From NCBI GenBank assembly GCA_022376925.1, contig JAIOJX010000001.1:37046170-37110169 (forward strand): DNA of 64,000 bases, given 5' to 3'. Below the pieces are notes generated by a model that saw nothing but the letters and a program-made list of their open reading frames with translations, had not been told where the DNA came from and did not search any database. The translations under genes and the position numbers were made by a program. Origin of the DNA: Tragulus kanchil (taxonomy: Eukaryota; Chordata; Mammalia; Artiodactyla; Tragulidae). This document shows positions 1,325 through 64,000 of this stretch, piece after piece (the first letter of the stretch is position 1; each line of letters begins with the position of its first letter).

Positions 1325-1605
1325 GTCTTACGTTTTCCTCTCTCCCTTTCTTCTCTCTCCTCCATGTTTCCCTCTTCTTTCTCTTCAGTTCTGTCTTTTT
1401 TTCTGTTTCTCTACCTCTCTTTCTCTCTTTTAGTACCTCAATAAGTATCTCTTTTCATCTATCTCCCTGCCTTGTGTGTATGTGTCTCTCTTCTCTCTGT
1501 GTGTCTCTGTCTGTTTCCTTTTTCTCCCCCTTCTTACTTTTTTCTTACCCTTTCACCTGTTCCCTTTCACTGAGAAACCCTTTCAGTGTTTCTCTGGATT
1601 TCTTG
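1325..1605. repeat. Pyrimidine-rich low-complexity tract
   Basis: A C/T-rich tract on the + strand with many ctctt, tttct and gtgtctct motifs. It generates a spurious 179-residue Ser/Phe/Leu-rich frame at 1105-1644. The 3' part of the tract, from 1483, is repeated at 2562 as the start of a 1.0-kb duplication. Confidence 0.8.
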
Positions 1606-2497
1606 AACTGTGTGGAATTCCTTCACAATAGATGGAGACTGTGAGAAAGTGGTTGGGAATGAGGACGATTTACTGCCGCCAGAGAAGGAGCTAGTCTTCC
1701 TTCCATCTATAAACGGTGTGAAACAAATCCTTTGGAATCAGCCTCCACCTCCTCAGCTGCCAGCTTTCAAAAGATGCTCTGCTGTCCATCACAGTCCCTC
1801 TGCCCCGTGAAACAGTGTGCTCTCCAGGTGGCAATACAGTGAAAGGAGCCTGGAAGGTACATGTCATCACAAGCCAGGGGGAATGTGGCAGATGGCCTAG
1901 GGCATCTTCCCAGGGACAAGGGAGAGAATACAGTTCCATGCATTTGGCCCCAGGACCTTTAACACTTGTCCAGTGTTCACACAAACATACTTGGAAAATA
2001 TCCCAAGGACTCCTGATGTCAAGGGTATGATGCTAGAATCAAGCCTTCCCTCAGATGCTTCTTTATGTTGCCCTAAACGCCAATCTCATCCTCACCCCCA
2101 ACCCAGGCACTTGGCAAATATCGAGGCTGAAGCTTCAGGCAGGAGGCATGTCCATGACCTTTATAAACTCCTCGGATGTGGGACTCCTCTGATCATATGC
2201 TATGTTAGGTGCGGCACATGTTTTGCAGCAAAGTTCTGCCTCCCCCTCATCAGCCCTGGGGTGCTGGTGTGAAAAGAACCTTGAAATGGAAGCCAGCCAC
2301 CTTAGTTTAGGGTGCCAACTCCCACACCCTTCCTCCATTGCTACTGTGGCCCCCAGTGGTTTTACGAAGCATCCCCCAGGTGAATAACCCTTTCAAAAGG
2401 AATATATATATGCACAGTGTTAAACTAAGACATATGAACAAAAAGAAAAAATAGGCTGCAAGCTCCTGATGCTTATGGCTGATACCCAATTATGAAG
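1483..2497 (+). repeat. Duplication 1, copy A (1015 bp)
   Basis: Repeated in direct orientation at 2562-3576, an offset of 1079 bases. All open frames inside, for example the 97-residue minus-strand frame at 1691-1984, recur unchanged in copy B. There is no recognisable gene. The content is the end of a pyrimidine-rich tract followed by unassigned sequence. See the findings on false duplication. Confidence 0.97.
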
Positions 2498-2561
2498 GCC
2501 CAGGTGAAAATAACCCTTTGAGCAACAATGGTCTTAACAAGGTGGATGATTGTTTTAATAT
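2498..2561. other. Junction spacer of duplication 1
   Basis: This 64-bp spacer contains a near copy of unique sequence found beyond copy B: 'gagcaacaatggtcttaaca' and what follows at about 2520-2550 match 3635-3665. The match is preceded by degraded sequence. The spacer end, next to copy B, loosely resembles the flank before copy A. This is the pattern of two noisy contig ends laid end to end. Confidence 0.75.
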
Positions 2562-3576
2562 TGTCTCTCTTCTCTCTGTGTGTCTCTGTCTGTTTCCTTT
2601 TTCTCCCCCTTCTTACTTTTTTCTTACCCTTTCACCTGTTCCCTTTCACTGAGAAACCCTTTCAGTGTTTCTCTGGATTTCTTGAACTGTGTGGAATTCC
2701 TTCACAATAGATGGAGACTGTGAGAAAGTGGTTGGGAATGAGGACGATTTACTGCCGCCAGAGAAGGAGCTAGTCTTCCTTCCATCTATAAACGGTGTGA
2801 AACAAATCCTTTGGAATCAGCCTCCACCTCCTCAGCTGCCAGCTTTCAAAAGATGCTCTGCTGTCCATCACAGTCCCTCTGCCCCGTGAAACAGTGTGCT
2901 CTCCAGGTGGCAATACAGTGAAAGGAGCCTGGAAGGTACATGTCATCACAAGCCAGGGGGAATGTGGCAGATGGCCTAGGGCATCTTCCCAGGGACAAGG
3001 GAGAGAATACAGTTCCATGCATTTGGCCCCAGGACCTTTAACACTTGTCCAGTGTTCACACAAACATACTTGGAAAATATCCCAAGGACTCCTGATGTCA
3101 AGGGTATGATGCTAGAATCAAGCCTTCCCTCAGATGCTTCTTTATGTTGCCCTAAACGCCAATCTCATCCTCACCCCCAACCCAGGCACTTGGCAAATAT
3201 CGAGGCTGAAGCTTCAGGCAGGAGGCATGTCCATGACCTTTATAAACTCCTCGGATGTGGGACTCCTCTGATCATATGCTATGTTAGGTGCGGCACATGT
3301 TTTGCAGCAAAGTTCTGCCTCCCCCTCATCAGCCCTGGGGTGCTGGTGTGAAAAGAACCTTGAAATGGAAGCCAGCCACCTTAGTTTAGGGTGCCAACTC
3401 CCACACCCTTCCTCCATTGCTACTGTGGCCCCCAGTGGTTTTACGAAGCATCCCCCAGGTGAATAACCCTTTCAAAAGGAATATATATATGCACAGTGTT
3501 AAACTAAGACATATGAACAAAAAGAAAAAATAGGCTGCAAGCTCCTGATGCTTATGGCTGATACCCAATTATGAAG
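2562..3576 (+). repeat. Duplication 1, copy B (1015 bp)
   Basis: Near-identical to 1483-2497. The copy boundary at 3576 falls after '...ccaattatgaag', where copy A diverges into the spacer and copy B continues into new unique sequence. Confidence 0.97.
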
Positions 3577-5672: not shown

Positions 5673-6039
5673 GGTGCATAGCTCCTACTAGCCACAACTA
5701 TTCCCCAAATCTGACCCTCCTCTTCTGCTGCCAGCCTTAGTGAAAGGCACCTGCTGCCAGCCGGAAAGCAAGGAATCATTCCTGACTCATTCCTCTACCT
5801 TGTCTTCCGGCTCCAACCCATCACCAACCAAATCCTGTCAATTTTACCTTCCAGTCTCAGTCAGATACTGTCCCATAATACCATGTACCTCCAGCATTGC
5901 TTTGAAAAGTTGCAGTTTTACATAAATGGCTGTGATCATTCATGCCCATCTCCCTTCTCATCACTGTATTCCCAGTACCTAGCCCAGCACCAGTTAGGTA
6001 TTAATAGATATTGTTGAATAAATGAATGAGGTAGAGGTA
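5673..6039. other. Unassigned non-coding DNA
   Basis: No feature recognised. The stretch near 5950-6030 ('ttgttgaataaatgaatgag') resembles the 3' tail of MIR-type elements but is too short to assign. Confidence 0.35.
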
Positions 6040-6150
6040 AGCTATTTGAGATTCAGAGAAGTTAAGCAACTTGCCCAGAGTCACACAGTAAGCAGCCATG
6101 CCAGGATGTGAACTAATGCTCAAGTTGGTGCTCTTAATCATAGTGTTAGC
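6040..6150 (-). repeat. MIR SINE (antisense)
   Basis: 'agagaagttaagcaacttgc', 'cccagagtcacacagtaagc' and 'gatgtgaactaatgctc' are the antisense MIR core. The duplication boundary at 6074 falls inside it. Confidence 0.75.
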
Positions 6151-6586
6151 CGTAATGAGACCGACATAACAGGATGGGCCATGGTACAGGTGTAAGGTGA
6201 GGCAGAAAGGCTATAAAGTAACCTCTGTATTTTTGCTTGGGGACTGGATTTGCACTCTTTCCCTTTCCTGGTTAGGGACTGCATCAGTGGAAGTCTGCAT
6301 CAGGATTCTAATCTTGTCAAGATTAGACAAGACCATGCCACAGTGTCGTGGGCAAAGCATAAGTGTACATGTGGGGAGTGCTGGGGGAGATCAATGAAAT
6401 AGTCAGACCTAGACCTGGTAAAATAGAGCTAGCTATGGAGCGATACGGAGACTTCCTGAAGCCTGAAGGCGGTAGGGATGGGGAGTTAGCACCACCTGGT
6501 GGACTCCAAGCTCATTTCAAGTCAATAATGAGTGCCGAGGAAAGTGTTGGAGAGTCTGGGCTGAAAAGGCCAGATAGGTATAGAAG

Positions 6587-6794
6587 GGGCTTCCCTGGTA
6601 GCTCAGCTGGTAAAGAATCTGCCTGCAATGCGGAGACCCTGGTTCAATTCCTGGTTCAGGAAGATCCCACGGAGAAGGAAATGGCTGCCCACTCTAGTAT
6701 TCTTTCCTGGAGAATTCCATGAACAGAGGAGCCTGGCAGGCTGCAGTCTATGGGGTCACAAAGAGTTGGACACGACTGAAGTGACTAAGCAGAG
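6587..6794 (+). mobile_element. Bov-tA SINE (in duplication 2, copy A)
   Basis: A tRNA-like head with A box (tagctcagctggtaaag) and B box (ggttcaattcc) is joined to a Bov-A body ending 'ggggtcacaaagagttggac' and 'acgactgaagtgac'. This dimeric structure is diagnostic of ruminant Bov-tA. It has no coding capacity and is mobilised by the BovB machinery, with which it shares its 3' end. Confidence 0.95.
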
Positions 6795-6804
6795 CGCGGG
6801 AAAA

Positions 6805-6980
6805 GAATTCATTACTGAGAGCTTACTGTACTGGATGGTACTTAAATCCTCACACCAACCCAGATCAGGAACCAAAGACCAAAGTGGTTAAGTACCTTGC
6901 TTGAGATCAAACGACTAAGGGATGACAGTTAGAACTTGGACCCAGGTCTGCCTTTCTAGAGCTCACCTTCTTTCTACTGT
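6805..6980 (-). repeat. MIR SINE (antisense), copy A
   Basis: 'ttactgagagcttactgt', 'aaatcctcacaccaaccc', 'agtaccttgcttgagatcaa' and 'gaacttggacccaggtctgc' follow the antisense MIR order. Repeated at about 7915-8090 in copy B. Confidence 0.75.
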
Positions 6981-7136
6981 GCTACATGTGGCATGAAGAA
7001 GCCATGAGGAGCAAAGGAAGGAAATTTTAAGGAAGAACAGAAGTTAAATTTCAGGTCAATTCTGCTCAAGAAAAGCACGAAGCTGGCAATAGAGTTCAGA
7101 CAAGCTGTCCCTTCCCAAGGGTCTGCTGCACTGGCC

Positions 7137-7183
7137 CCCAATGGGTAAGAAGAGAGGTAAGCATTTAGTTCAGAAAGTTAAGC
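7137..7183. other. Junction spacer of duplication 2
   Basis: The second half, 'agaggtaagcatttagttca' and 'gaaagttaagc', is a corrupted version of the unique flank just before copy A, 'agaggtaagctatttgagat' and so on at about 6032-6068. It carries several small indels and substitutions, whereas the neighbouring kilobase copies match exactly. Confidence 0.8.
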
Positions 7184-7696
7184 CCCAGAGTCACACAGTA
7201 AGCAGCCATGCCAGGATGTGAACTAATGCTCAAGTTGGTGCTCTTAATCATAGTGTTAGCCGTAATGAGACCGACATAACAGGATGGGCCATGGTACAGG
7301 TGTAAGGTGAGGCAGAAAGGCTATAAAGTAACCTCTGTATTTTTGCTTGGGGACTGGATTTGCACTCTTTCCCTTTCCTGGTTAGGGACTGCATCAGTGG
7401 AAGTCTGCATCAGGATTCTAATCTTGTCAAGATTAGACAAGACCATGCCACAGTGTCGTGGGCAAAGCATAAGTGTACATGTGGGGAGTGCTGGGGGAGA
7501 TCAATGAAATAGTCAGACCTAGACCTGGTAAAATAGAGCTAGCTATGGAGCGATACGGAGACTTCCTGAAGCCTGAAGGCGGTAGGGATGGGGAGTTAGC
7601 ACCACCTGGTGGACTCCAAGCTCATTTCAAGTCAATAATGAGTGCCGAGGAAAGTGTTGGAGAGTCTGGGCTGAAAAGGCCAGATAGGTATAGAAG

Positions 7697-7904
7697 GGGC
7701 TTCCCTGGTAGCTCAGCTGGTAAAGAATCTGCCTGCAATGCGGAGACCCTGGTTCAATTCCTGGTTCAGGAAGATCCCACGGAGAAGGAAATGGCTGCCC
7801 ACTCTAGTATTCTTTCCTGGAGAATTCCATGAACAGAGGAGCCTGGCAGGCTGCAGTCTATGGGGTCACAAAGAGTTGGACACGACTGAAGTGACTAAGC
7901 AGAG
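7697..7904 (+). mobile_element. Bov-tA SINE (in duplication 2, copy B)
   Basis: The same insertion as 6587-6794, repeated 1110 bases downstream with no visible difference. It is not an independent insertion. Confidence 0.95.
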
Positions 7905-7914
7905 CGCGGGAAAA

Positions 7915-8090
7915 GAATTCATTACTGAGAGCTTACTGTACTGGATGGTACTTAAATCCTCACACCAACCCAGATCAGGAACCAAAGACCAAAGTGGTTA
8001 AGTACCTTGCTTGAGATCAAACGACTAAGGGATGACAGTTAGAACTTGGACCCAGGTCTGCCTTTCTAGAGCTCACCTTCTTTCTACTGT
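7915..8090 (-). repeat. MIR SINE (antisense), copy B
   Basis: Duplicate of the MIR at 6805-6980. Confidence 0.75.
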
Positions 8091-8499
8091 GCTACATGTG
8101 GCATGAAGAAGCCATGAGGAGCAAAGGAAGGAAATTTTAAGGAAGAACAGAAGTTAAATTTCAGGTCAATTCTGCTCAAGAAAAGCACGAAGCTGGCAAT
8201 AGAGTTCAGACAAGCTGTCCCTTCCCAAGGGTCTGCTGCACTGGCCAGGTACCCCAGCCCCATGCCATCTCCCTCATTCTGTTTCCTATTTGCAGCAAGT
8301 TCTTGATGCCTTAGTGTCTCAAGATGTTAGTGGCCACTGTCTTGGATCCTTCTCTGTCCTTAAGGGAAGGAAACTAAGGAAATTTAGGAAGACCATCCAC
8401 AAATCATAGGAATTTGGATTAAGTTAAACTAAATGCAAAATATTGAGTGTCTATCCTAGCCTGGTTCTGTGTGGTCTTTAGGTTGCAAAATAGACACCT

Positions 8500-12200: not shown

Positions 12201-12717
12201 TGTCAACTTAAAAAAAAGATAACTTGAAAGCTGTGGGTTAAGTTTTATTAGGGGCATAATTAGGATTGCATCCTGAGAGGCCACATCTCAGATGGCTCTG
12301 AGAGACTTGCTCCACAGAGGCAGAGGAGGAGGAAGAAAGTCAATGTAAGGATTTTGGTGTGGGGGAGTTCAAATGTTATTAAACAAAGGGTTTCCAAAGG
12401 GTTTTGTTTTACAAATTGTTTGGGTCAGTCATGAAGATGTGATGTTTTCATGGAATTTAGCACTTTTCTAGGTGTGAGGGGATGCAAGGATTGAGATTGT
12501 AAAATCTGTTCCTTAAGCATTTTCTTATCTAAAAACCTGTTTCACCAGATTCCCCCGAACACAGAGTGCCTCCTCCCACCCTGATTTCCTTCAGGGGGTG
12601 TTGAAAACCAGCAGCTCTCAACAGCATAGTGTTCAATCCCTGCAGAGGCAGAATGCAAATGTCCTTGTTGTTCAGTCACTGACAATGTAATTGATAAATG
12701 CCAATTTGTAGTTGACA
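12201..12717 (-). mobile_element. Solo LTR, minus orientation (517 bp)
   Basis: The element begins TGTCAACTT and ends AGTTGACA, the TG...CA ends of a retroviral LTR with short terminal inverted repeats. It is the reverse complement of the LTR at 12865-13320 over almost its whole length. The complement of an AATAAA signal lies about 45 bp from its outer end, so I set it as minus strand. The flanks 'gtat' and 'atat' suggest a mutated 4-bp target-site duplication. No internal endogenous retrovirus sequence is adjacent. Family name not determined. Confidence 0.75.
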
Positions 12718-13428
12718 ATATCACGTAGGCAAAATATAGCATGGACAACTGTAAAAGGTGTTTTCCTAGAATTCAGAATTCCCTCACATCATAGAGGAAA
12801 GCAGACATCAGAAAAGTATATCATACTAAGGGCATTCACTTCTCAGGAAAACAAGCATAACTAGTGTCAACTACAAATTGGCATTTACCAATTACATTGT
12901 CAATGACTGGACAACAAGGGCACTTGCCATCTGCCTCTGCAGAGATTGAACTCTGTGCTGTTAGGAACTGCTGACCTTTAATACCCCTCAAAGGAGATTA
13001 GGGTGGAGCAAGGCACTCTGTGCTCCATGGAATCCTGTGGGGCAGGTCTTTGGATAGGTAAATGCTTTTAAGAACAGATTTTACCATCTCAATCCTTGCA
13101 TCTCCTCACACCTAGAAAAGCACTAAATTCCTTCATGAAAACATCACATCCTCATGACTTACCCAAACTATTTGCAAAACAAAACCCTTTGTTTAATAAC
13201 ATCTGAACTCCCCCACACCAAAATCCTTACATTGACTTTCCTCCTCCTCTGCAGTCCTAATTATGCTCCAAATAAAACGTAACTCACAACTCTCAAGTTG
13301 TTCATCTTTTTTAGTCTACACTAGTAAAGTTATTTATTTTTTTAAAAAAAGCAGCCATTTAAAAATTTCTCAAAATTGTCCTAAGGCAAGATAACAAGCG
13401 AAGAAATACTTATTTAAGAAAATCTACT
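12281..13428 (+). repeat. Duplication 3, copy A (1148 bp)
   Basis: Directly followed by an identical unit at 13429-14576 with no spacer. Copy A starts inside the left LTR and ends after the right LTR. The frame at 12542-12748 recurs unchanged at 13690-13896. Confidence 0.97.
12865..13320 (+). mobile_element. Solo LTR, plus orientation (456 bp)
   Basis: Runs TGTCAACTAC...GTCTACA with an AATAAA at 13271-13276, about 45 bp before the 3' end. Flanked on both sides by CTAG ('aactag' before, 'ctagtaa' after), consistent with the 4-bp target-site duplication of class I endogenous retroviruses. It lacks about 60 bp relative to the left LTR, near the position matching 12270-12315. No internal retroviral region remains. 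Confidence 0.78.
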
Positions 13429-14576
13429 CCACATCTCAGATGGCTCTGAGAGACTTGCTCCACAGAGGCAGAGGAGGAGGAAGAAAGTCAATGTAAGGAT
13501 TTTGGTGTGGGGGAGTTCAAATGTTATTAAACAAAGGGTTTCCAAAGGGTTTTGTTTTACAAATTGTTTGGGTCAGTCATGAAGATGTGATGTTTTCATG
13601 GAATTTAGCACTTTTCTAGGTGTGAGGGGATGCAAGGATTGAGATTGTAAAATCTGTTCCTTAAGCATTTTCTTATCTAAAAACCTGTTTCACCAGATTC
13701 CCCCGAACACAGAGTGCCTCCTCCCACCCTGATTTCCTTCAGGGGGTGTTGAAAACCAGCAGCTCTCAACAGCATAGTGTTCAATCCCTGCAGAGGCAGA
13801 ATGCAAATGTCCTTGTTGTTCAGTCACTGACAATGTAATTGATAAATGCCAATTTGTAGTTGACAATATCACGTAGGCAAAATATAGCATGGACAACTGT
13901 AAAAGGTGTTTTCCTAGAATTCAGAATTCCCTCACATCATAGAGGAAAGCAGACATCAGAAAAGTATATCATACTAAGGGCATTCACTTCTCAGGAAAAC
14001 AAGCATAACTAGTGTCAACTACAAATTGGCATTTACCAATTACATTGTCAATGACTGGACAACAAGGGCACTTGCCATCTGCCTCTGCAGAGATTGAACT
14101 CTGTGCTGTTAGGAACTGCTGACCTTTAATACCCCTCAAAGGAGATTAGGGTGGAGCAAGGCACTCTGTGCTCCATGGAATCCTGTGGGGCAGGTCTTTG
14201 GATAGGTAAATGCTTTTAAGAACAGATTTTACCATCTCAATCCTTGCATCTCCTCACACCTAGAAAAGCACTAAATTCCTTCATGAAAACATCACATCCT
14301 CATGACTTACCCAAACTATTTGCAAAACAAAACCCTTTGTTTAATAACATCTGAACTCCCCCACACCAAAATCCTTACATTGACTTTCCTCCTCCTCTGC
14401 AGTCCTAATTATGCTCCAAATAAAACGTAACTCACAACTCTCAAGTTGTTCATCTTTTTTAGTCTACACTAGTAAAGTTATTTATTTTTTTAAAAAAAGC
14501 AGCCATTTAAAAATTTCTCAAAATTGTCCTAAGGCAAGATAACAAGCGAAGAAATACTTATTTAAGAAAATCTACT
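13429..14576 (+). repeat. Duplication 3, copy B (1148 bp)
   Basis: Perfect-looking tandem copy of 12281-13428. It carries a truncated minus-strand LTR (13429-13865) and a complete plus-strand LTR (14013-14468). These are copies of the same insertions, not new ones. Confidence 0.97.
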
Positions 14577-15222: not shown

Positions 15223-16342
15223 AAAGACAGAATACTAAAAACAGCAAGGGAAAACAACTAGTGACATACAAGGGAAACCCCATATGTTTAACAGCTGATC
15301 TTTCAACAGAAACTCTGCTGGCCAGAAGGGAATGGCAAGACACTTTAAAGCACTGAAACAGAACAATCTGCGACCAGGAAAACTCTACCCTTCAAGGAAC
15401 TCACTCAAAATTGATGGAGAAATCAAAAGCTTTACAGACAAGCAAAAATTGAGAAAATTTAGCATCACAAAACCAGCCTCACAGCAAGTATTATAGGGAC
15501 TTATATAGACAACAAATAGAAGAAGAAAAAGATGGGGGCGTCCCTGGTGGTCCAGTGGGTAAGGACATCGCCTTGTAGTGCAAGGGGTGCCGGTTAGATC
15601 CCTGGCCTGGGAAAATCCCACATGCGTGTAGCAGCTGGACCAATGTGTCCAATTACCGAGCCAGAGCTCTGGAGTGCGTGTGCCCAGAGCCGGTGCTCTG
15701 TGACAACAGAGGCCACTGCGATGGGAGGCCCACACGGGCCAAAGATGGATGAAAATAGATAAATGAAAGACCAATAGAAGTGGCCTGCCTGCCTCCTCTC
15801 TCCTCAACCCGCCCCCCCTCCCCCTAAAAAGAAAAGGCAAAGTCTTTAAAATGAAAAAAAGAAAAGAAAAAGATCTAAAAAACAAACCCATCATAAAATC
15901 TAAGAAAATTGCAATAGGATCATCTGTATCAATAATTACTTTAAATGTAAATGGACTAAAAAATTCAACCAAAAGACACAGACTGGTTGAATACATGCTA
16001 AAAAAAAAAGACCCACAAATATGCTGCCTACAAGAAACTCACTTCAGACCTAAAGACTGAAAGTTAGAGGCTGGAAAAATATATTCCATGCAAACAGAAA
16101 TCAAAAGAAAACTAGAGTAGCAATCCTCATATCAGACAAAATAGACTATAAAATAAGGAAGATTATAAGAGACAAGGCAGGACACTATATTATGGTCAAG
16201 GGATTGATCCCAAGAGAAAGACATAACAATCATAAATATCTATGTACCCAACACAGGAGCACCCCAGTCCATAAGGCACACACTTTCAGACATAAAAGAA
16301 GAAATTGACAGTAACACAATAATGGTAGGAGACTTTAACACC
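15223..16342 (+). repeat. Duplication 4, copy A (about 1.12 kb)
   Basis: Direct repeat of 16379-17491. The outer parts match closely. The interior at about 15796-15835 and 15870-16095 differs at many positions from copy B. The offset drifts from 1155 to 1149, showing net indels. Confidence 0.93.
15534..15864 (+). mobile_element. CHR-like SINE, unrecognised subfamily (copy A of duplication 4)
   Basis: tRNA-like head 'gtccctggtggtccagtggg' with a B-box-like 'ggttagatccctgg'. The body carries the diagnostic 'ggaccaatgtgtccaattac', 'gagccagagctctggagtgc', 'gatgggaggcccacacgggc' and 'gaaagaccaatagaagtggc', then a C-rich and A-rich tail. The target-site duplication agaaaaagat lies at 15524-15533 and 15865-15874. 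It is inserted into L1. Confidence 0.85.
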
Positions 16343-16378
16343 TTTACATCATCTGAAACAAAAACAAAATTTCTGCAA
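16343..16378. other. Junction spacer of duplication 4
   Basis: 'tttacatcatctgaaacaaa' and what follows look like a corrupted version of the unique sequence beyond copy B, 'cttacaccaatggacagatc' and 'atcaaaacagaaaatt' at 17494-17530. The end joins directly to a slightly altered start of copy B. Confidence 0.7.
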
Positions 16379-17491
16379 AAAAGACAGAATACTAAACAGC
16401 AAGGGAAAACAACTAGTGACATACAAGGGAAACCCCATATGTTTAACAGCTGATCTTTCAACAGAAACTCTGCTGGCCAGAAGGGAATGGCAAGACACTT
16501 TAAAGCACTGAAACAGAACAATCTGCGACCAGGAAAACTCTACCCTTCAAGGAACTCACTCAAAATTGATGGAGAAATCAAAAGCTTTACAGACAAGCAA
16601 AAATTGAGAAAATTTAGCATCACAAAACCAGCCTCACAGCAAGTATTATAGGGACTTATATAGACAACAAATAGAAGAAGAAAAAGATGGGGGCGTCCCT
16701 GGTGGTCCAGTGGGTAAGGACATCGCCTTGTAGTGCAAGGGGTGCCGGTTAGATCCCTGGCCTGGGAAAATCCCACATGCGTGTAGCAGCTGGACCAATG
16801 TGTCCAATTACCGAGCCAGAGCTCTGGAGTGCGTGTGCCCAGAGCCGGTGCTCTGTGACAACAGAGGCCACTGCGATGGGAGGCCCACACGGGCCAAAGA
16901 TGGATGAAAATAGATAAATGAAAGACCAATAGAAGTGGCCTGCCTGCCTCCTCTCTCCTCAACCGGATCCCCGCCCAAAAAATAAAAGGCAAAGTCTTTA
17001 AAATGAAAAAAAGAAAAGAAAAAGATGTACCAAACAAACCCATCATAGCATCTAAGAAGATGGCAATAGGATCATTTGTATCAATAATTACTTTAAATGT
17101 AAATGGACTAAATGTCCGAACGGAAAGACACAGACTGGCTGCATGGATACAAAAACAAGACCCATATATATGCTGCCTACAAGAAACTCACTTCAGACCT
17201 AAAGACTGAAAGTGAGAGGATAGACAATTACACTCCATGCAAACAGAAATCAAAAGAAAGCTGGAGTAACAATCCTCATATCAGACAAAATAGACTATAA
17301 AATAAGGAAGATTATAAGAGACAAGGCAGGACACTATATTATGGTCAAGGGATTGATCCCAAGAGAAAGACATAACAATCATAAATATCTATGTACCCAA
17401 CACAGGAGCACCCCAGTCCATAAGGCACACACTTTCAGACATAAAAGAAGAAATTGACAGTAACACAATAATGGTAGGAGACTTTAACACC
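16379..17491 (+). repeat. Duplication 4, copy B (about 1.11 kb)
   Basis: Second copy of the 15223-16342 segment. It continues into the ORF2 endonuclease region with sequence expected of an L1 ('gactttaacacccctcttac'), so this copy is the one contiguous with the rest of the element. Confidence 0.93.
16689..17016 (+). mobile_element. CHR-like SINE, unrecognised subfamily (copy B of duplication 4)
   Basis: The same insertion as 15534-15864, with the same target-site duplication. Differences are concentrated in the C-rich tail. Confidence 0.85.
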
Positions 17492-18710: not shown

Positions 18711-19196
18711 ATGTGGGACCTAATGAAACTTAAAAGCTTCTGCACAGCAAAAGAAACTACAAACAAGGTGAACAGACAACCCACAGAATGGAAGAAAGTA
18801 ATAGTAAATGAAACAACCAACAAAGAATTAATCTCCAAAATATACAAGCAGCTCAGACAACTCAAAACTGAAAAAACAAACAACAAAATCAAAAAATGGG
18901 AAAAAGACCTAAAGAAACATTTCTTCAAAGAAGATATACAGATGGCCAAAAAACACATGAAAAGATGCTCAATGTCGCTTATTATTAGAGAAATGCAAAT
19001 CAAAACTACAATGAGATATTACCTCATACCAGTCAGAATGGTCATCATCAAAAAACCTACAGATAATAAATGCTGGAGAGCGTGTGGAGAAAAGGGAACA
19101 CTCTTGCCCTGTTGGTGGAAATGTAAATTGATACAACCACTATGGAAGACAGTGTGGAAATTCCTTAAAAAAACTAAGAATAGAAGCACCATATGA
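18711..19196 (+). pseudogene. L1 ORF2 C-terminal remnant
   Basis: A 161-codon frame beginning [18 protein letters not shown] and ending with [16 protein letters not shown] and [18 protein letters not shown], the cysteine-rich C-terminal region of L1 ORF2p. It directly abuts the early RT segment, confirming the internal deletion. The copy beyond 18800 is repeated at 19956. Confidence 0.9.
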
Positions 19197-19911
19197 CCCA
19201 GCAATCCTACTATTAGGCTTACACCTTGATGAAATCAAAATTGAAAGAGATGCCTGTACCCCAATGTTCATGCAGCACTCTACACAATAGCTAGATCATT
19301 GAAGCAACCTAGATGTCCATAGACGAATGAATGGATAAAGAAGCTCTGGTATATATACAATGGAATACTTCTCATCTGCAAAAAGAAATGCAGAAGATTC
19401 AATCCTAATGAGATGAATGAATCTAAAACCTATTATACAAAGTGAAGTAAGTCAAAAAGAGAAGGACAAATATAGTATCCTAACACATGTATATTGTGGT
19501 TAATGGGCTTAAAGTGTAAATTTTGATAGCTTGTAATTAAATTGACAGAATTGTCAACCAGTCACCAAGTTTAGAACATTTCATCACTCCCAAAAGAAGT
19601 CCCATAACCCATTAGCAATTATTCCCATTGCCCCTCCCTCCAGCTCAGGGCAACCACTGTAGTGGTTTATTCGCTAAGTCGTGTCTGACTCTTGCGATGC
19701 CAGGGACTGTGGCCTCTCAGACTCCACTCTCCATGGGATTCTCCAGGCAAGAATACTGGAGTGGGTTGCCATTTCCCTCTCCAGGGGATCTTCCTGTCCC
19801 AGGAATTGAACTCAAGTCTCCTGCCTTGCAGGCAGATTCTTTACCGACTGAGCTACAAGGGAAGCCCCAAATGAATCTATTTGCCTTTTCTGGACATTTT
19901 ATGTAAATGAT
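18800..19911 (+). repeat. Duplication 5, copy A (1112 bp)
   Basis: Direct repeat of 19956-21067, an offset of 1156. The L1 part and both flanks of the SINE match, but the SINE inside (19655-19867) differs at many positions from copy B (20811-21023). Confidence 0.95.
19655..19867 (-). mobile_element. Bov-tA SINE (copy A of duplication 5)
   Basis: 'gctaagtcgtgtctgactct', 'ccatgggattctccaggcaa', 'gaatactggagtgggttgcc', then a tRNA-head complement ending 'gagctacaagggaagcccc'. It reads as a Bov-tA in minus orientation. Compared with copy B it is unusually different in the first Bov-A part and around the B-box complement. Confidence 0.93.
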
Positions 19912-19955
19912 TTTAAAAGAAACTACAAACAAGGTGAACAGAAAACCCAAAAAAT
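19912..19955. other. Junction spacer of duplication 5
   Basis: After 'tttaaaag', the spacer reads 'aaactacaaacaaggtgaac' and 'agaaaacccaaaaaat', a shortened, corrupted version of the sequence just before copy A (18753-18799). Confidence 0.8.
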
Positions 19956-22935: not shown

Positions 22936-23210
22936 CAGATCCTTAGCTAGCTTTTTTTTGGCCTCTAACTCATCATTTGTTTTCATCCATCTTTTTTACT
23001 CTTTGGCATGTGTGGTCCTCCTATTGTGTGCGCCTCCCTTGTTGCAGAGCACTGGCTCTGGGCACATGTGCTTCAGAGTGCTGGCCTGTAATTGGACACA
23101 CCAGCCCAGCCACTCCACAGCATGTGGGATCTTCCTGGGCCAGGGATCAAACCGGTGCTCCTTGCACTGCAAGGGGGACCATTTACCCACTGGATCACCA
23201 CATAAGCCTG
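22936..23210 (-). mobile_element. Older CHR-like SINE, antisense
   Basis: Shares the layout of the 21840-22160 SINE but is more diverged: 'cctgtaattggacacaccag', 'catgtgggatcttcctgggc' and the head complement 'ggatcaccacataagcc'. Likely an older member of the same lineage. Its 5' half is duplicated at about 24172. Confidence 0.8.
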
Positions 23211-23296
23211 GTTATCTATTTTAAATATAGCAGTGTGTACATGTCAATCCCATACTCCCAGTCTATTCCACTCCTGCACCCTTATCTTTCTGGTTT

Positions 23297-23628
23297 TCTT
23301 TTTGTTTTATTTAATTTATTTATTTTTGGCTATGCTGGGTCTTCATTGCTGTGTGGGCTTCCTCTGGCCACAGTGAGCAGGAGCTACTCTTCATTGCGTT
23401 GTGTGGGCTTCACATTGTAGTGGCTTCTCTTGCTGTGGAGCACAGGATCTATGGTGCACGGGCTTCAGTAGTTGTAGCAGGTGGACTTTTCAGGCTCTAG
23501 AGCACAGTTTCAATGGATGTGGTGCATAGTTGTTCCATAGCATGTAGGATCTTCCTGGATCAGGGATCGAACCTGTGTCTGCTGCAGTGATAGGCAGATT
23601 CTGTACCACTCAGCCACCAGGGAAGCCC
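23297..23628 (-). mobile_element. CHR-type SINE, antisense (copy A)
   Basis: A/T tail 'tttaatttatttatttttgg', then 'ctatgctgggtcttcattgc', 'ggcttcagtagttgtagcag' and 'gatcttcctggatcaggga', with the head complement 'cagccaccagggaagccc'. Possible TSD 'ttctggttttct' on both sides. Repeated at 24399-24731. Confidence 0.88.
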
Positions 23629-44829: not shown

Positions 44830-46275
44830 TCTTTTTTGTCAATTGTTCAGTTATATTGACTCTTTGAGTATTCTTTGTCCCTTTCTCTCTCTCTCTCCTT
44901 TCCTTCTAGGACTCCCGTTATACATATTGTGACATACTTTGTGGTGTCCCACAAGTCTCTGAAGGCTTTGTTCAGTTTTATCATCCCTTATACTTTCTGT
45001 TCCTCAGACTGTATAATCTTGATTGATCTATTTTCAAGTTGGCTAATTCTTTCTTCTGCCAGGTCAAATCTGCTTCTGAGCCATCCTACTGAACTTTTCA
45101 CTTGAGTGATTATGCTTTCCAACTCCAGAATTTCATTGCATTATTTTTATAATGTCTGTCTCTTCAGTGATATTCTCTATATAATGAGAAATTGTCACCA
45201 TACCTTCCTTTAATTCTTTAAATGTAGTTTCCTTTACTTTCTTGAACGTATGTATAAAGCTTACTTTATAAAGTCTTTGCCTGCTAAGACCCACTCAGAC
45301 ACAGTTTCAGTTTTCTACTTTTTCCCTGAATATGGGTCATATTTTTCTGTATCTTTGTATATGTAATAGTTTTTTTGTTGAAAACTGGGCATTTTAGATA
45401 ATATTGTAGCAACTCTAATACTAACCTCCCTCTGGGGCTTGTTATTGTTTGTTTGCTTGTTCAGTGGTTTTGCTGGACTAATTCTGGGAATTCTATTTCC
45501 CTTGTAGTGGGTAGCATCAAAAGTATCTGAAGAGGTGTTTTTTTCTTTTTTTTCTGCCTTTCTATTTTTTTAGTCTGGCTTCCCTGAGTTTGCTTTTGAC
45601 TCAGCATAGTTTATGGTTAAGCCATCAATTAGTCAGAAATTGTGCCTAAGTCTCTAGATCCAGTGAGGTTTTCCGTGTGAAGCTTGGAGACTGGTTTCAC
45701 AGTTCAGGGGAAAAGCAGTCAGGGACTTATATTTTGGAAGCACTTTCTCTAGTCTTCTCTAAGAAAGTGCAGCCTTGAGCAAAGAAATCTTTGCTCAGAT
45801 GTCTTTGAGCACAGGGGAAGAGTGTGATTTCAGCAAGACTCTTAAGACTCTTTCCCTGATGTACCTGTTGTGTCTTGTTTCCCTCTATTCATATTACCAA
45901 GCTGATATCCTCCTTTGATTGCTAGTCACTGTGAACTTTATAGTGTTAATCAGCACCTTGGGTATGAATTCCTCCACTCTCTAATCCAAATTGTCTATTC
46001 TCTCTAGCTGGGCCAGATCTGCCAGTCTGCAATTTGCCCCACAACTTCCCTCAGGGAGAACCTTGGGGCTCTGGCATACAAGGAGTTGAGGGTCACTGTT
46101 CTTCACTGGCTAATCCACCCACATCCTCCCTACAGAGCAAATGCTATGAGTGGAGGAAACAGGCACCATCAACTGGTTGCTGTCACTCACCCAGTATAGA
46201 TCTCTGTAGCACAGAGAGGGAGAAATGGGATATTCATCTGGCTCGGCCATCTTTCCAGTACAGATGTTCTTAATC
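44830..46275 (-). mobile_element. Old L1 5'-region sequence, antisense
   Basis: 'gttgaaaactgggcatttta', 'gataatattgtagcaactct' and the long T-rich run of text from 44870 to 45620 resemble antisense 5' parts of old mammalian L1s. Assignment is by resemblance. Edges are uncertain, and the 3' part overlaps duplication 8. Confidence 0.55.
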
Positions 46276-46977
46276 AGGGACCTGGGGAAGATTAAAGTTG
46301 TTTACTAGACTGTATCTGAGTCAACCCAGTCTGTCCAGTGGGCCGAGGGTTGGTTTTTCTACAGATGGACCTGGGAGAAGGATGGGTGCTGCTCAACTGT
46401 CATACCCTGCCACTGTTCACAAGTTTCAATCAAATTTGTTGCATAATGTCTCTCAATTTTTTGTAAGTCTGTAAGTCTGCTGGTCAATCTCCAGAGAGTT
46501 TAAAAGGTTTTCTTTGATAATTTTGACCAGTTTAATAGATGCTTCTCTGGAGGAGAGGATTCCATGAGCCCCTCATACCAGAAAGGGGACAATATGAAGT
46601 TCTTGAGACACAGCTGCAGATGACTGACAACCAGACTGACAACCAGAACCAAAGTTGGGTAAGTAGGTTACTGAGAAAACAAAATCACCGTCATTATGAT
46701 ACATGAGAAATATTTATGCTATAGACACCCTTGAACTGAGTTTAGGCTCATTTTATCTTCATAGGATGTCACAAATGGTTCTGTTTATATAGCCAACAAT
46801 GGACGCATAATCTGTCAAATGTGCATAGCACCTGCATTCTGGGAAGCGTGATGGTTTCTTTGGGTTCAGTCTCCCACCCTTACTAGAGCCAGAAAGTGTG
46901 CACTACAACATGTACAAGTCAGCACTGGGAGGAGGGAAAAGCTCTTGGAGCTTTTCCTAGTCTAATGGAACAGACAA

Positions 46978-47024
<47 letters not shown>

Positions 47025-47208
47025 CCAACCTTTGCATGAAAGAGGTGAAGGAGGTGATGAAGCAAGGCAAAAAATGAGGCCAAATCCTGGTTTGGCCTTT
47101 AACCAACTTTGTGGCCTTAAGCAAGACATAACCCTATAATTTTCTCATCTGTTCTCATCTTTAAAAGATAACTGAGTAACCTCTCCCCTGTTTAACTCCT
47201 AAACCTAT
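46117..47208 (+). repeat. Duplication 8, copy A (1092 bp)
   Basis: Direct tandem repeat with 47209-48302, with no spacer. The offset goes from 1091 to 1093 because the CA run inside is one unit shorter in copy A. Confidence 0.97.
46979..47022. repeat. (AC)22 microsatellite (copy A)
   Basis: Uninterrupted. The same locus in copy B (48070-48115) has 23 units. Confidence 0.97.
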
Positions 47209-48068
47209 CCCACATCCTCCCTACAGAGCAAATGCTATGAGTGGAGGAAACAGGCACCATCAACTGGTTGCTGTCACTCACCCAGTATAGATCTCTGTAG
47301 CACAGAGAGGGAGAAATGGGATATTCATCTGGCTCGGCCATCTTTCCAGTACAGATGTTCTTAATCAGGGACCTGGGGAAGATTAAAGTTGTTTACTAGA
47401 CTGTATCTGAGTCAACCCAGTCTGTCCAGTGGGCCGAGGGTTGGTTTTTCTACAGATGGACCTGGGAGAAGGATGGGTGCTGCTCAACTGTCATACCCTG
47501 CCACTGTTCACAAGTTTCAATCAAATTTGTTGCATAATGTCTCTCAATTTTTTGTAAGTCTGTAAGTCTGCTGGTCAATCTCCAGAGAGTTTAAAAGGTT
47601 TTCTTTGATAATTTTGACCAGTTTAATAGATGCTTCTCTGGAGGAGAGGATTCCATGAGCCCCTCATACCAGAAAGGGGACAATATGAAGTTCTTGAGAC
47701 ACAGCTGCAGATGACTGACAACCAGACTGACAACCAGAACCAAAGTTGGGTAAGTAGGTTACTGAGAAAACAAAATCACCGTCATTATGATACATGAGAA
47801 ATATTTATGCTATAGACACCCTTGAACTGAGTTTAGGCTCATTTTATCTTCATAGGATGTCACAAATGGTTCTGTTTATATAGCCAACAATGGACGCATA
47901 ATCTGTCAAATGTGCATAGCACCTGCATTCTGGGAAGCGTGATGGTTTCTTTGGGTTCAGTCTCCCACCCTTACTAGAGCCAGAAAGTGTGCACTACAAC
48001 ATGTACAAGTCAGCACTGGGAGGAGGGAAAAGCTCTTGGAGCTTTTCCTAGTCTAATGGAACAGACAA

Positions 48069-48117
<49 letters not shown>

Positions 48118-48302
48118 CCAACCTTTGCATGAAAGAGGTGAAGGAGGTGATGAAGCAAGGCAAAAAATGAGGCCAAATCCTGGTTTGGCCTTTAACCAAC
48201 TTTGTGGCCTTAAGCAAGACATAACCCTATAATTTTCTCATCTGTTCTCATCTTTAAAAGATAACTGAGTAACCTCTCCCCTGTTTAACTCCTAAACCTA
48301 TC
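47209..48302 (+). repeat. Duplication 8, copy B (1094 bp)
   Basis: Second copy. Its last ~63 bp (48240-48302) are also the start of duplication 9, so that segment occurs three times (47146, 48240 and 49375). Confidence 0.97.
48070..48115. repeat. (AC)23 microsatellite (copy B)
   Basis: One unit longer than its copy at 46979. Confidence 0.97.
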
Positions 48303-48649
48303 TCAGAGTTAACAGTCCTTTTTACTTGATACACTCAAACCATATTAATTTCTTTCTGTTCCTTGAAAATACCAAGTCCTTGCCTGCCTTGAGATCATTG
48401 CACAGTATATTCCCTCTGTCTGAAGTGGATTTTTACAACGTGTTCATGAAGTCAGCTCTCCTCTCATCATTTAGGCAATAGATTAAACATCACCTGTGCA
48501 GAGCAGACTACCCTGACAATGAATCTAAAACAAAACAAAACCAAAAATTCCCTGGCTTTTTTCTACTCTAGTCATTCTATCAGATTATTTCCTTTATAAT
48601 GCTTATAAATACCTGGACATAGAAGCAATATATTAATACCTAGTGGAAT

Positions 48650-48860
48650 ATTGCAGAATTGCCTTGGTTTGGATCCTGGTTCTACCACTTTTTTAAATCT
48701 GTGACTTTGGGCAAGTAATTTAATCGCTCTGAGCTCCAGTTTCTTCATGTGTAAAATAGGAATAATAATAGAACTTACCTTACAGGTGTTGTTGTAAGAA
48801 CTATATGAGTTAATACAGGTAAAATGTTTAGCCAGTATCTGGCATTTGGTAAGAATGTCT
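48650..48860 (+). repeat. MIR SINE (copy A)
   Basis: 'ttggatcctggttctaccac', 'gtgactttgggcaagtaatt', 'cagtttcttcatgtgtaaaa', 'ttgttgtaagaactatatga' and 'cagtatctggcatttggta'. Full-length order. Repeated at about 49784-49994. Confidence 0.9.
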
Positions 48861-48879
48861 CTCAGTATTACATATTACA

Positions 48880-49345
48880 GTAGCCAACCCCCAAAACGGC
48901 TCTCCAATGATCCTTACCTCCTTGTATTCAGAGGAGGGTTGGTCTATGTGATAAGGCAGAAGTAATGGTATGTCATGTCTGAGATTAAGTTATAAAAGAT
49001 TCATCTTGCATCTTGGACACTCTCACTCAGTTCTGTTCTCTCTCCTCAGATCACTCATTCAGGGAGAAGGAAACAACCTGCCACATGAAATAGCCCCATG
49101 GAGAAGTCCAAATGGTATGACAAACCATAGAGGCCTCTGGTCAACACCTGAAGAGGAACTGAGGCCTTAACACAAACACATGAGTGAGTATGGTGGCAAA
49201 TTCTCAATCTCTGGTTGACAACTTGACTGCAATCTCATGAAAGATCCTGAACTGGAATTATCCATTTAACTCTTTCCTGGATTTCTGACTATCAGAAACC
49301 ACATGAAATAATATTTGTTGCTTTAAGTCATTAAAGTTTTAGAGT
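48880..49345 (+). repeat. MaLR-like LTR (copy A)
   Basis: Starts 'ccaacccccaaaacggctct', with 'ctgagattaagttataaaag' in the middle and 'gttgctttaagtcattaaag' near the end. This is the MLT1-type LTR order. Repeated at about 50014-50479. A 66-codon frame inside is not a gene. Confidence 0.6.
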
Positions 49346-49374
49346 AATTCATTAACTAAAATAGATATTAAGTT

Positions 49375-50508
49375 ATCTGTTCTCATCTTTAAAAGATAAC
49401 TGAGTAACCTCTCCCCTGTTTAACTCCTAAACCTATCTCAGAGTTAACAGTCCTTTTTACTTGATACACTCAAACCATATTAATTTCTTTCTGTTCCTTG
49501 AAAATACCAAGTCCTTGCCTGCCTTGAGATCATTGCACAGTATATTCCCTCTGTCTGAAGTGGATTTTTACAACGTGTTCATGAAGTCAGCTCTCCTCTC
49601 ATCATTTAGGCAATAGATTAAACATCACCTGTGCAGAGCAGACTACCCTGACAATGAATCTAAAACAAAACAAAACCAAAAATTCCCTGGCTTTTTTCTA
49701 CTCTAGTCATTCTATCAGATTATTTCCTTTATAATGCTTATAAATACCTGGACATAGAAGCAATATATTAATACCTAGTGGAATATTGCAGAATTGCCTT
49801 GGTTTGGATCCTGGTTCTACCACTTTTTAACTCTGTGACTTTGGGCAAGTAATTTAATCGCTCTGAGCTCCAGTTTCTTCATGTGTAAAATAGGAATAAT
49901 AATAGAACTTACCTTACAGGTGTTGTTGTAAGAACTATATGAGTTAATACAGGTAAAATGTTTAGCCAGTATCTGGCATTTGGTAAGAATGTCTCTCAGT
50001 ATTACATATTACAGTAGCCAACCCCCAAAACGGCTCTCCAATGATCCTTACCTCCTTGTATTCAGAGGAGGGTTGGTCTATGTGATAAGGCAGAAGTAAT
50101 GGTATGTCATGTCTGAGATTAAGTTATAAAAGATTCATCTTGCATCTTGGACACTCTCACTCAGTTCTGTTCTCTCTCCTCAGATCACTCATTCAGGGAG
50201 AAGGAAACAACCTGCCACATGAAATAGCCCCATGGAGAAGTCCAAATGGTATGACAAACCATAGAGGCCTCTGGTCAACACCTGAAGAGGAACTGAGGCC
50301 TTAACACAAACACATGAGTGAGTATGGTGGCAAATTCTCAATCTCTGGTTGACAACTTGACTGCAATCTCATGAAAGATCCTGAACTGGAATTATCCATT
50401 TAACTCTTTCCTGGATTTCTGACTATCAGAAACCACATGAAATAATATTTGTTGCTTTAAGTCATTAAAGTTTTAGAGTAATTCATTAACTAAAATAGAT
50501 ATTAAGTT
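49375..50508 (+). repeat. Duplication 9, copy B (1134 bp)
   Basis: Second copy of 48240-49374, including a MIR (about 49784-49994) and MaLR-like LTR (about 50014-50479). Confidence 0.97.
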
Positions 50509-50669
50509 ATCTTGTCAGTCTACCTGATTGCCATAAGTCCTCTCTACTCTATCCCTAGTCCTTTGTCATGGACTACTAACATTAGAATGAACATGCATTT
50601 ATGTGGTGAGTATACATCAACATTTCACTGAAGGGCTTGAATAGCCCTTGTTATATTGTTACTATACTG

Positions 50670-55207: not shown

Positions 55208-55209
55208 CA

Positions 55210-60345: not shown

Positions 60346-62093
60346 GTAGATGTTCTTTATCAAGCTGAGGAAATTACCATTTATTTCTATTTTTCTGAGG
60401 GTTTTTACTATGAATGAGTGTTGAAGTTTTTCAAATGATATTTCTGCATTGATTGACATGATCTATAATTTTTCTTCTTCATCCTGATTGTGGGTTGTGT
60501 TGATTACTTTTTAAGTACTGAACTGGACTATGGATGTCTTTAGATCTTGAGTGAGTCTCTCATAGGCAGCATATATATGGATCTTGTGTTTTTATCTATT
60601 CAGCCATCTTATGCCTTTTGATTGGAGCATTTAGCTCATTTACATTTAAAGAAATTATTGGTATGTACGTACATAATGCCAATTTGCTGTTTGCTGGTTA
60701 TTTTTGTAGTTCTTTTCTTCCCCCTATCTTTTTCTTTTGTTCTCTTCCCTTGTGATTTGATGACTATCTTTAGTGTTATATTTTTATTCCTTTCTCCTCC
60801 CACTTGTACTGGTGTGTGTGTGTGTGTGTGTGTGTGTGCATATCTATTACATATTTTTGTTTTGTGATTGCCATGAGATTCATATATAACTACATATATA
60901 TGATTATTTTAAGTTGATGATCTCTTATGTTTGAATGCATTCTAACAACTCTACATTGTTACTCCTGCTCCCACAATGCTTAAGGCATTCATCATACTCT
61001 ATCTTTGTGAATCTCTTAACTACTTATTGTGGATATAGGTGATTTTACTGTTAATACTTTGTCATTTAATCTTCTTACTATGCTTATAAGTGGTTGATCC
61101 ACTCTTTACTGTAGGCATTTACCAATGAGATTTTTTTCATAATTTTCAGTTGTAGTCTTTCTTTTTTGCATAGAGAATTTTCTTTATCATTTATCTTAAA
61201 GCAGTTTAATGGTATTGAACTCTTTTAGTTTTTGCTTTTTGTAAAATTCTTAATCAGTTCTTCAAATCTTAGTGATAGCCTCACTGGGTAAACTATTCTT
61301 GGTTGTAGGGTTTTTAATTTTCATATCTTTGAATATACCCTGCCACCATCCTCTTGCCTGTAAAGTTTTTGCTGAAAAGTCAGTTGATAGCCTTATAGGA
61401 GTTCCCTTATAAACAACTCATTGGTTTCTTGCTGCTTTCAAGATTCTCTCTTCATCTTTATCTTTTTCCATTTTAATCATAATGTGTCTTGGGTTCATCT
61501 TGCTTGGGACTCTATGCTTTCTGGACCTGAATGTCTATTTCCTCTCCCAGGTTAGGGAAGTTTCCAGCTCTTATTTCTTCAAATAAATTCTTATCCTGTT
61601 TCTTTTCCTTCTGGGATCCCTATAATGCAAATGATAGTGTGCTTGATGTTGTCCTGGAGGTCCTGTAAACTATCCTGAAGTAAACTTTTTTCTGTTTTCT
61701 GTTCAGCTTGGCTGGTTTCCATTATTGGGTTTTCTAATTTGCTGGTCCATTCCTCTGTATTATTAAATCTACTGTTGATTCTTTCCAATGTATTTTTCAC
61801 TTAGTTATTGTATTCATCTCTGTTTAGTTCTTCTTTATATTTTCTAACATTTTGTTAATTTTCTTACTGTGTTCATCCATTCTTCTCCTGAGTTCATCAA
61901 GCATCCTTATAATGATTACTTTGAACTCTTTATCAGATAAATTGTTTATCTCCAGTTTGCTTCGTTCTTATTTTGATTTTTATTCATGTCACTTTGTTTG
62001 GAACATACGCCTCTGTCATTTGCTTAATTCTCTCCTTATTTCTATGCATTAGGTAGGCTGGTTATATTTACCAATTTGAAGATGCTGCCTTAT
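60346..62093 (-). mobile_element. Old L1 ORF1/inter-ORF region, antisense
   Basis: 'agcatttagctcatttacat', 'gtcagttgatagccttatag', 'gggactctatgctttctgga', 'atttcttcaaataaattctt', 'ggtttccattattgggtttt' and 'gttcatcaagcatccttata' follow an antisense L1 inter-ORF and ORF1 order. A (GT)n run at 60812-60838 interrupts it. The minus frame at 61591-61800 (NSRFNNTEEWTSKLEN) looks like a coiled-coil piece of L1 ORF1. Confidence 0.78.
60812..60838. repeat. (GT)n microsatellite
   Basis: About 13 GT units, uninterrupted. Confidence 0.97.
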
Positions 62094-63179
62094 TTAGGAG
62101 AAGTCTTATGAGACCCAGCAGTATATTCCCCTCTGTTCACCAGAGCTCTGTGCTCTAGGTGTGCTCCATCTGCAGGCTGCATCGGCCCTTCTGTTGTGGC
62201 AGGCCCAACTAATGTGGCTGCTGTCATGGGCAGGGCTGTGTCCTAGGGTACCTGACTGTAGAGCCAGTGACTCTGGGACTAATGTTGGCCTATTGATGGG
62301 TTGGTAAGTTCCCAGAGCTGACAGGATAGAGAGAGGATCCCAAAAAGGTTCTTGCCAGCCCAGGGTCCTCATGATAGAACAAGTTCCCAAAGATGGATGC
62401 TGCCACTGACTGTATCCCCAGGAGTCCCAGTTCCCTCATGCCTTTCTGTGAGGTTCTCCAAGATCAGCAAGTGGGTCAGACCCAGGATCCTTTCAAATTC
62501 CTGCCTCTGAACTCAGTCTCAGACTGTGAAATTTTTATCTCCTAAAGTCCTCTGGCTCTCCCATATTCAAGCTCTGGTGGCCTCAAAGCCAGATTTGCTG
62601 GAGGCTCATCTTTCTGGAGCAGGACACCCAGGTTTTGGAGTCCAATGTGGATTCAGATCCCTCAATCCTTGAGGAGAACTTCTGAAGTTGTAATAGCCTC
62701 CGGGCTGCACACTGCCTATCAGGGATATGGCTCATGTCTCCGCCACTCCTATCTGTTTCATTGTGGATTTTCTTTACATCATCGGTTGTGGAAAATCTTT
62801 TCTCCTAGTAATTAGGTAATTCTCACAGATAATTGCTGTATAAATAGTTGTAACTTTAGTGTGTCTGGGTCTTCCAACTCACCATGTTGGCCATATCCTT
62901 TTTTCTACTTTCTTGAGGTAGGCATTTAGATTGTTGATTTAAAATACATCCTTTTTTCCAGTGTAAACTTTTAGTGCTATAAATTTCACTATCACTCTGG
63001 TTTTACCTGTGCTATACAATTTTTCTTATGTTGTATTTTCATTTTTAGTAAGTTTAATATATTTCTATTTTAAATTTTGCTTGCAACTTTCTCTTTGACT
63101 TACGACTTATTTATAAGAGTGATTACTCCAAGTATTTAGAGATTTTTTCCTGTTATTTTTGATTTCATTTTCATTGTAG
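62094..63179 (+). repeat. Duplication 10, copy A (1086 bp)
   Basis: Direct tandem repeat with 63180 onwards, no spacer. The content appears to be the GC-richer 5' UTR of the same old antisense L1 (62100-62760) and AT-rich L1-like sequence to 63179. One visible difference is 'ctccatctgc' against 'ctccacctgc'. Confidence 0.96.
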
Positions 63180-64000
63180 TTAGGAGAAGTCTTATGAGAC
63201 CCAGCAGTATATTCCCCTCTGTTCACCAGAGCTCTGTGCTCTAGGTGTGCTCCACCTGCAGGCTGCATCGGCCCTTCTGTTGTGGCAGGCCCAACTAATG
63301 TGGCTGCTGTCATGGGCAGGGCTGTGTCCTAGGGTACCTGACTGTAGAGCCAGTGACTCTGGGACTAATGTTGGCCTATTGATGGGTTGGTAAGTTCCCA
63401 GAGCTGACAGGATAGAGAGAGGATCCCAAAAAGGTTCTTGCCAGCCCAGGGTCCTCATGATAGAACAAGTTCCCAAAGATGGATGCTGCCACTGACTGTA
63501 TCCCCAGGAGTCCCAGTTCCCTCATGCCTTTCTGTGAGGTTCTCCAAGATCAGCAAGTGGGTCAGACCCAGGATCCTTTCAAATTCCTGCCTCTGAACTC
63601 AGTCTCAGACTGTGAAATTTTTATCTCCTAAAGTCCTCTGGCTCTCCCATATTCAAGCTCTGGTGGCCTCAAAGCCAGATTTGCTGGAGGCTCATCTTTC
63701 TGGAGCAGGACACCCAGGTTTTGGAGTCCAATGTGGATTCAGATCCCTCAATCCTTGAGGAGAACTTCTGAAGTTGTAATAGCCTCCGGGCTGCACACTG
63801 CCTATCAGGGATATGGCTCATGTCTCCGCCACTCCTATCTGTTTCATTGTGGATTTTCTTTACATCATCGGTTGTGGAAAATCTTTTCTCCTAGTAATTA
63901 GGTAATTCTCACAGATAATTGCTGTATAAATAGTTGTAACTTTAGTGTGTCTGGGTCTTCCAACTCACCATGTTGGCCATATCCTTTTTTCTACTTTCTT
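63180..64000 (+). repeat. Duplication 10, copy B (821 bp seen, continues past the window)
   Basis: Matches 62094-62914 to the last base of the window. Confidence 0.96.

Follow-up and report, generated by a model that had tools for sequence, protein, structure and literature searches.

Kelley and Salzberg (2010; PMC2864568) counted duplicated overlapping contigs (DOCs) in cow, chimpanzee, chicken and dog, and the mis-assembled DOCs amount to 1,094 in cow (1.09 Mb), 13,159 in chimpanzee (13.7 Mb) and 5,698 in chicken (10.8 Mb); if the Mb figures are overlap lengths, division gives a mean of about 1.0 kb in cow and chimpanzee and 1.9 kb in chicken. The duplications treated there lie on separate contigs only, and are mostly haplotype-divergent: their median identity is 98.1%, and values above 99.5% are few. 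One mark of a DOC is that merging the two pieces makes the mate pairs more consistent. Ko et al. (2022; PMC9516828) described homotype and heterotype false duplications in vertebrate assemblies, the homotype class having a read depth below the haploid level and no haplotype-specific k-mers, and some of the false copies having been joined through incorrect gap filling. In the Atlas/Phrap assembly of cattle (Liu et al. 2009; PMC2686734), Phrap was run on 'either raw or trimmed reads' and overlapping clones were merged by shared reads and sequence overlaps. Here we describe ten direct duplications of about 1.1 kb in a stretch of 64,000 nucleotides from Tragulus kanchil (assembly GCA_022376925.1, contig JAIOJX010000001.1, positions 37,046,170 to 37,110,169), which is called the window below. 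Judged from the letters of the window, the ten duplications are, with high confidence, an assembly artefact as a whole, and about 11,000 bases of the window are probably not in the animal.

An earlier note on this DNA had described ten near-identical direct duplications of about 1.1 kb, and self-BLAST of the window recovers all ten of them, at coordinates within tens of bases of those first given (pair 2 is placed here at 6033/7153 and pair 5 at 18749/19915). Pieces of all ten pairs are also present among the 20 largest of 30 repeat families. The copies of every pair lie head to tail and abut, with no N between them, and the window is written in A, C, G and T only, with no N anywhere. In all ten pairs the end of one piece is the start of the next, with the same sequence in direct orientation, as in DOCs; as to the separate contigs on which DOCs lie, the window is gapless and N-free, so no boundary displays an original contig structure. 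The copies are the following, in window coordinates:

1483..2561, + strand, pair 1 copy A; last 64 bases deletion-rich relative to copy B
2562..3576, + strand, pair 1 copy B; exact-match part, the counterpart of A's damaged tail coming after it
6033..7152, + strand, pair 2 copy A; 16 terminal bases unmatched
7153..8246, + strand, pair 2 copy B; 10 bases short (5 gaps) near its start
12281..13428, + strand, pair 3 copy A
13429..14576, + strand, pair 3 copy B; 1148/1148 identical to A
15223..16379, + strand, pair 4 copy A; LINE-1 (L1) plus short interspersed element (SINE), last 37 bases damaged, differing block at 15810-16120
16380..17491, + strand, pair 4 copy B; followed by further L1 ORF2 endonuclease
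18749..19914, + strand, pair 5 copy A; differing block at 19711-19852
19915..21067, + strand, pair 5 copy B; 10 bases short near its start
23066..24166, + strand, pair 6 copy A
24167..26324, + strand, chained middle piece of 2158 bases; left half pair 6 copy B (24167-25272), right half pair 7 copy A (25162-26324)
26325..27470, + strand, pair 7 copy B; continues as an open L1 ORF2 frame, A's frame losing the match at its tail
46118..47208, + strand, pair 8 copy A
47209..49374, + strand, chained middle piece of 2166 bases; left half pair 8 copy B (47209-48305), right half pair 9 copy A (48240-49374)
49375..50512, + strand, pair 9 copy B
62091..63176, + strand, pair 10 copy A
63177..64000, + strand, pair 10 copy B; ended by the window edge after 824 bases, its right end lying outside judgement

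The distance from the start of copy A to the start of copy B is 1079, 1120, 1148, 1157 and 1166 bases in pairs 1 to 5, and 1101, 1163, 1091, 1135 and 1086 bases in pairs 6 to 10 (the 1120 of pair 2 becomes 1110 past small gaps at the start of the arm). The ten offsets thus range from 1079 to 1166 with a mean of 1124.6, a standard deviation of 33.6 and a coefficient of variation of 3.0%, and they are found in arms both with and without L1 and SINE matches, which bears out the earlier statement that size is near constant regardless of content. The BLAST identities of pairs 1 to 10 are 100, 99.1, 100, 95.7, 97.6, 99.7, 98.4, 99.7, 99.8 and 99.8%, such that six of the ten exceed 99.5% and two reach 100% over the matched arm; these values cover matched arms, and leave aside the unmatched ends of copy A in pairs 1, 2, 4 and 7 (64, 16, 37 and 27 bases, respectively). 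The summed offsets amount to 11,246 bases, about 10,980 of which fall within the window, in agreement with the surplus of 10-11 kb that had been proposed, and removal of one copy per pair would take away about 11.0 kb, or 17% of the window.

Differences between the copies are concentrated at the junctions. Contig ends would fall at the first bases of copy B and the last bases of copy A, and damage within the first 60 bases of B or the last 80 of A is seen in seven of the ten pairs (1, 2, 4, 5, 6, 7 and 10), in agreement with such ends. On the left side of copy B, pair 2 is short of 10 bases, pair 4 of 2 bases and pair 5 of 10 bases near the start, the fifth position of pair 6 is one extra base, and the third base of pair 10 is changed. 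On the right side of copy A, the last 64 bases in pair 1, as aligned here, lack 43 bases that are present where B continues, the final 16 bases of pair 2 are unmatched, the final 37 of pair 4 are damaged, and the tail of pair 7 is damaged with its final 27 bases poorly matched. The damaged copy mostly lacks bases, the exceptions being the extra base of pair 6 and the partnerless bases in the tails of pairs 2 and 7; these two tails, at 7137-7152 and 26298-26324, are unlike the continuation of copy B. A C/T difference of pair 8 at 47210 lies past the junction, in copy B, and is not scored as end damage.

With the end zones taken as B's first 60 and A's last 80 bases, 60 of 117 difference events in all ten pairs fall within them, and 52 of the other 57 belong to the differing blocks within pairs 4 and 5; with these two pairs left out, 38 of 43 events lie in end zones that make up 12% of the length. 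A single damaged tail can contribute several linked events, and one TC variant of a middle piece is counted twice among the 38, so we rely on the per-pair count rather than on the event count or a binomial calculation. Loss of quality at contig ends is an expectation of our own, outside the published DOC definition, and it agrees with what is found: interiors are near identical except for repeat blocks in pairs 4 and 5. The even spread of differences expected of a genuine tandem duplication process is not found. A few interior differences have an allelic look, namely a change in AC-repeat length, TC, and single-base indels.

If the junctions were contig ends, damage would be expected in copy B at its left and in copy A at its right, and where a paralogue or a protein serves as arbiter, the damage mostly appears to be in the copy whose own contig end lies there (pairs 2, 4, 5 and 7 were considered). 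At the start of pair 5 the comparison used one paralogue, at 28112, which sides with A in 11 positions, with B in 1 and with neither in 1, and in the right block of the same pair four paralogues agree with B at 11, 11, 9 and 8 sites and with A at 3, 4, 3 and 2. Copy B of pair 7 gives 750.9 bits to human LINE-1 ORF2p over query residues 36-553, and the match of the frame in copy A ends at residue 135 or 136 of 156. The sequence after copy B of pair 4 is ORF2 endonuclease if one frame change is allowed for, and the tail of copy A, as seen by eye in the translation, departs from the ORF2 pattern. At the start of pair 2 the MIR-like sequence of copy A is presumably the more complete, set against what we take to be the MIR consensus.

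The spacing of the junctions adds a further pattern. The segments between them measure 4591, 6276, 2951, 3535, 4252, 2158, 20884, 2166 and 13802 bases, and the two smallest are nearly equal, each having one half in common with its left neighbour and the other half with its right. BLAST aligns the outer neighbours of these middle pieces directly with one another over 109 and 66 bases, where the matches run a few bases past the junction, and the sum of the offsets puts their overlaps at 106 and 60 bases; the middle pieces of 2158 and 2166 bases are accordingly two units minus 106 and 60 bases. When ten duplications were placed at random in 53 kb, at least two such near-abutting overlaps arose in 1.1% of 200,000 placements, with a limit of 120 bases on the chain overlap that was picked after the data had been seen. 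An origin in fixed-chunk polishing was rejected on the irregular spacing of the seams (2158 to 20884 bases).

Tandem arms of about 1.1 kb with less than 95.7% identity are absent from the self-BLAST of the window, in which no long decayed copies are seen, and the range of ages that a genuine tandem duplication process should leave is not seen. Weaker matches at like offset are present, one of 231 bases at an offset of 1047 (77.9%) and one of 181 bases at an offset of 1232 (79.6%); each is a member of a family that recurs several times elsewhere in the window, and we read them as dispersed repeats. The other self-matches of at least 94% and at least 45 bases are one 70-base stretch of L1, with 94.3% identity to each copy of pair 7, and the short overlaps of 109 and 66 bases inside the chained pairs 6/7 and 8/9.

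The artefact reading draws on the tight size whatever the content, the differences on the junction side, the mostly damaged end copy, the chaining and the lack of long decayed copies, and these same features lend support, short of proof, to the unmerged contig ends put forward in the earlier note. The duplications are most likely a known general kind of artefact, of unusually constant size and with no gap, rather than biology. Adjacent contigs overlapping by about 1.1 kb would have been concatenated untrimmed, such that every overlap became doubled. Untrimmed joins of contig ends account for the head-to-tail order, the damage at the junctions, its side where that can be tested, and the lack of long decayed copies; the constant length needs an extra step, and the simplest is that neighbouring contigs ended in the same read, the main alternative being a patch with fixed flanks. 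If both contigs ended in the same terminal read of about 1.1 kb, the duplicated unit would be one read, and a middle piece would be two reads with a short overlap, giving 2158 and 2166 bases. The unit may then be an untrimmed read of Sanger length, an idea based on the typical length of raw Sanger reads. To this shared-terminal-read version we give about an even chance.

Several observations weigh against untrimmed contig ends. None of the junctions shows an N or a visible contig boundary, the ends are clean in three of the ten pairs (3, 8 and 9), and pair 3, identical over 1148 bases, should have merged easily. Error-prone repair at a real junction would also leave errors there, and closeness to a paralogue is an indirect pointer to the correct copy. 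The differing blocks of pairs 4 and 5 sit inside the arms, and polarity is mixed in the inner L1 block of pair 4: B is nearer to human ORF2p in its first part (57.2 vs 46.9 bits) and A in its second (64.8 vs 56.1 bits). That block (15810-16120 vs about 16967-17275) carries 32 substitutions, of which 13 are transitions and 19 transversions, a pattern unlike ordinary ageing; the mixture would possibly be explained if reads from other L1 copies had entered one of the consensuses or both. Copy A of pair 7 has one interior base that copy B lacks (25664 vs 26825), and a 161-residue ORF2 frame of A (25514-25999) spans it, with no counterpart of at least 110 residues in B; the extra base thus keeps the longer frame in A, and B is not always the better copy.

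Among the explanations that compete with untrimmed contig ends, the one we rate highest, as a tentative second choice, is that gap-filling or local-reassembly patches with flanks of about 1.1 kb were inserted with one flank left untrimmed in the single pairs and both in the chained ones. This is itself a variant of the artefact reading, with which its probability overlaps. The middle pieces of 2158 and 2166 bases straddle the points where the outer neighbours overlap by 109 and 66 bases, just as a patch centred on a seam would, although a patch by itself leaves unexplained why the starts of copy B carry differences that resemble those of a single read and are mostly deletions. Unmerged haplotypes, two alleles set side by side, would also be an assembly artefact whose probability overlaps with that of the artefact reading, and we consider them unlikely here. 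The few allelic-looking interior differences speak for alleles, and Kelley and Salzberg (PMC2864568) favour haplotype divergence as the cause; however, six of the ten pairs exceed 99.5% identity against the median of 98.1%, with few above 99.5%, given there, and haplotypes provide no reason for an overlap of 1.1 kb every time. On account of these six pairs, most of the duplications appear to come from reads that were used twice and not from two haplotypes.

A real process in this genome that produces tandem duplications of about 1.1 kb is highly improbable. It would likewise yield head-to-tail joins, error-prone repair could place errors near the junctions, and the copies share a little sequence at two junctions (4 bases in pair 9 and 2 bases in pair 6). 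Against this, size is independent of content, no arm of about 1.1 kb falls below 95.7% identity and the weaker matches at like offset are short (181 and 231 bases) and belong to multi-copy families, and the difference blocks of pairs 4 and 5 are confined to repeats. No clear boundary motif is seen at the ten junctions either; the base before copy B is T in seven of ten and the first base of B is A in six of ten, which we do not count as a motif. Ten events per 53 kb would moreover imply enormous genome growth, if the window is typical. For such a process to be at work it would have to be a germline process of the lineage that copies any sequence head to tail in units of about 1.1 kb, makes errors in the synthesis next to the join and is too recent to have left decayed copies, and we hold this to be equally far-fetched.

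Tandem Repeats Finder, run for periods of up to 500, returns 16 rows of short arrays, and the two copies of pair 8 differ by one unit in the length of an AC repeat (46979-47023 vs 48070-48116). Rfam at its gathering threshold gives two tRNA matches, which are both copies of one site in pair 6, and two of the four tRNA-like sites found by ARAGORN are both copies in pair 2. Two families of tRNA-like SINEs occur, at 6591, 8814, 33330 and 53083 and at 15535, 34681, 37113 and 59460, which we take to be Bov-tA-like and CHR-2-like and which would suggest a ruminant. Ten open reading frames chosen from the 23 of at least 110 residues were compared with Pfam and yielded one family, a reverse transcriptase in 27030-28697; this 555-codon open frame is the second half of LINE-1 ORF2 (the 750.9-bit match to human ORF2p), and is perhaps a fairly young L1 fragment. 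For L1 relatives no match came up among viral contigs, and in genome contigs 27 stretches fit a pattern with none confirmed.

The finding is of low biological interest but is a useful quality flag, in that the animal itself probably lacks about 17% of the window. Should the remainder of the assembly be similar, genome size and the counts of segmental duplications and exons would be inflated and read mapping misled, and the signature of size, gapless tandem pairs near 1.1 kb, could flag such joins genome-wide. A gapless false duplication of constant 1.1-kb size was not found in the literature searched, which does not prove its absence, and the paper on the dog assembly offered nothing that bears on the matter. 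With the cattle Atlas/Phrap assembly (PMC2686734), the likeness is that of a ruminant pipeline, and nothing ties the window to cattle or to that assembly; conditions of that type might let read-length overlaps with poor ends survive. The classes of Ko et al. (PMC9516828) are set by read depth and k-mers, whereas the pairs of the window are known from sequence alone, and their false copies are mostly split by an assembly gap, unlike the gapless pairs described here. The DOCs of Kelley and Salzberg (PMC2864568) differ in lying on separate contigs and in being mostly divergent, whereas the window is gapless and six of its ten pairs exceed 99.5% identity; they are alike in that neighbouring pieces overlapping at their ends show as adjacent copies, just as they do in the window.

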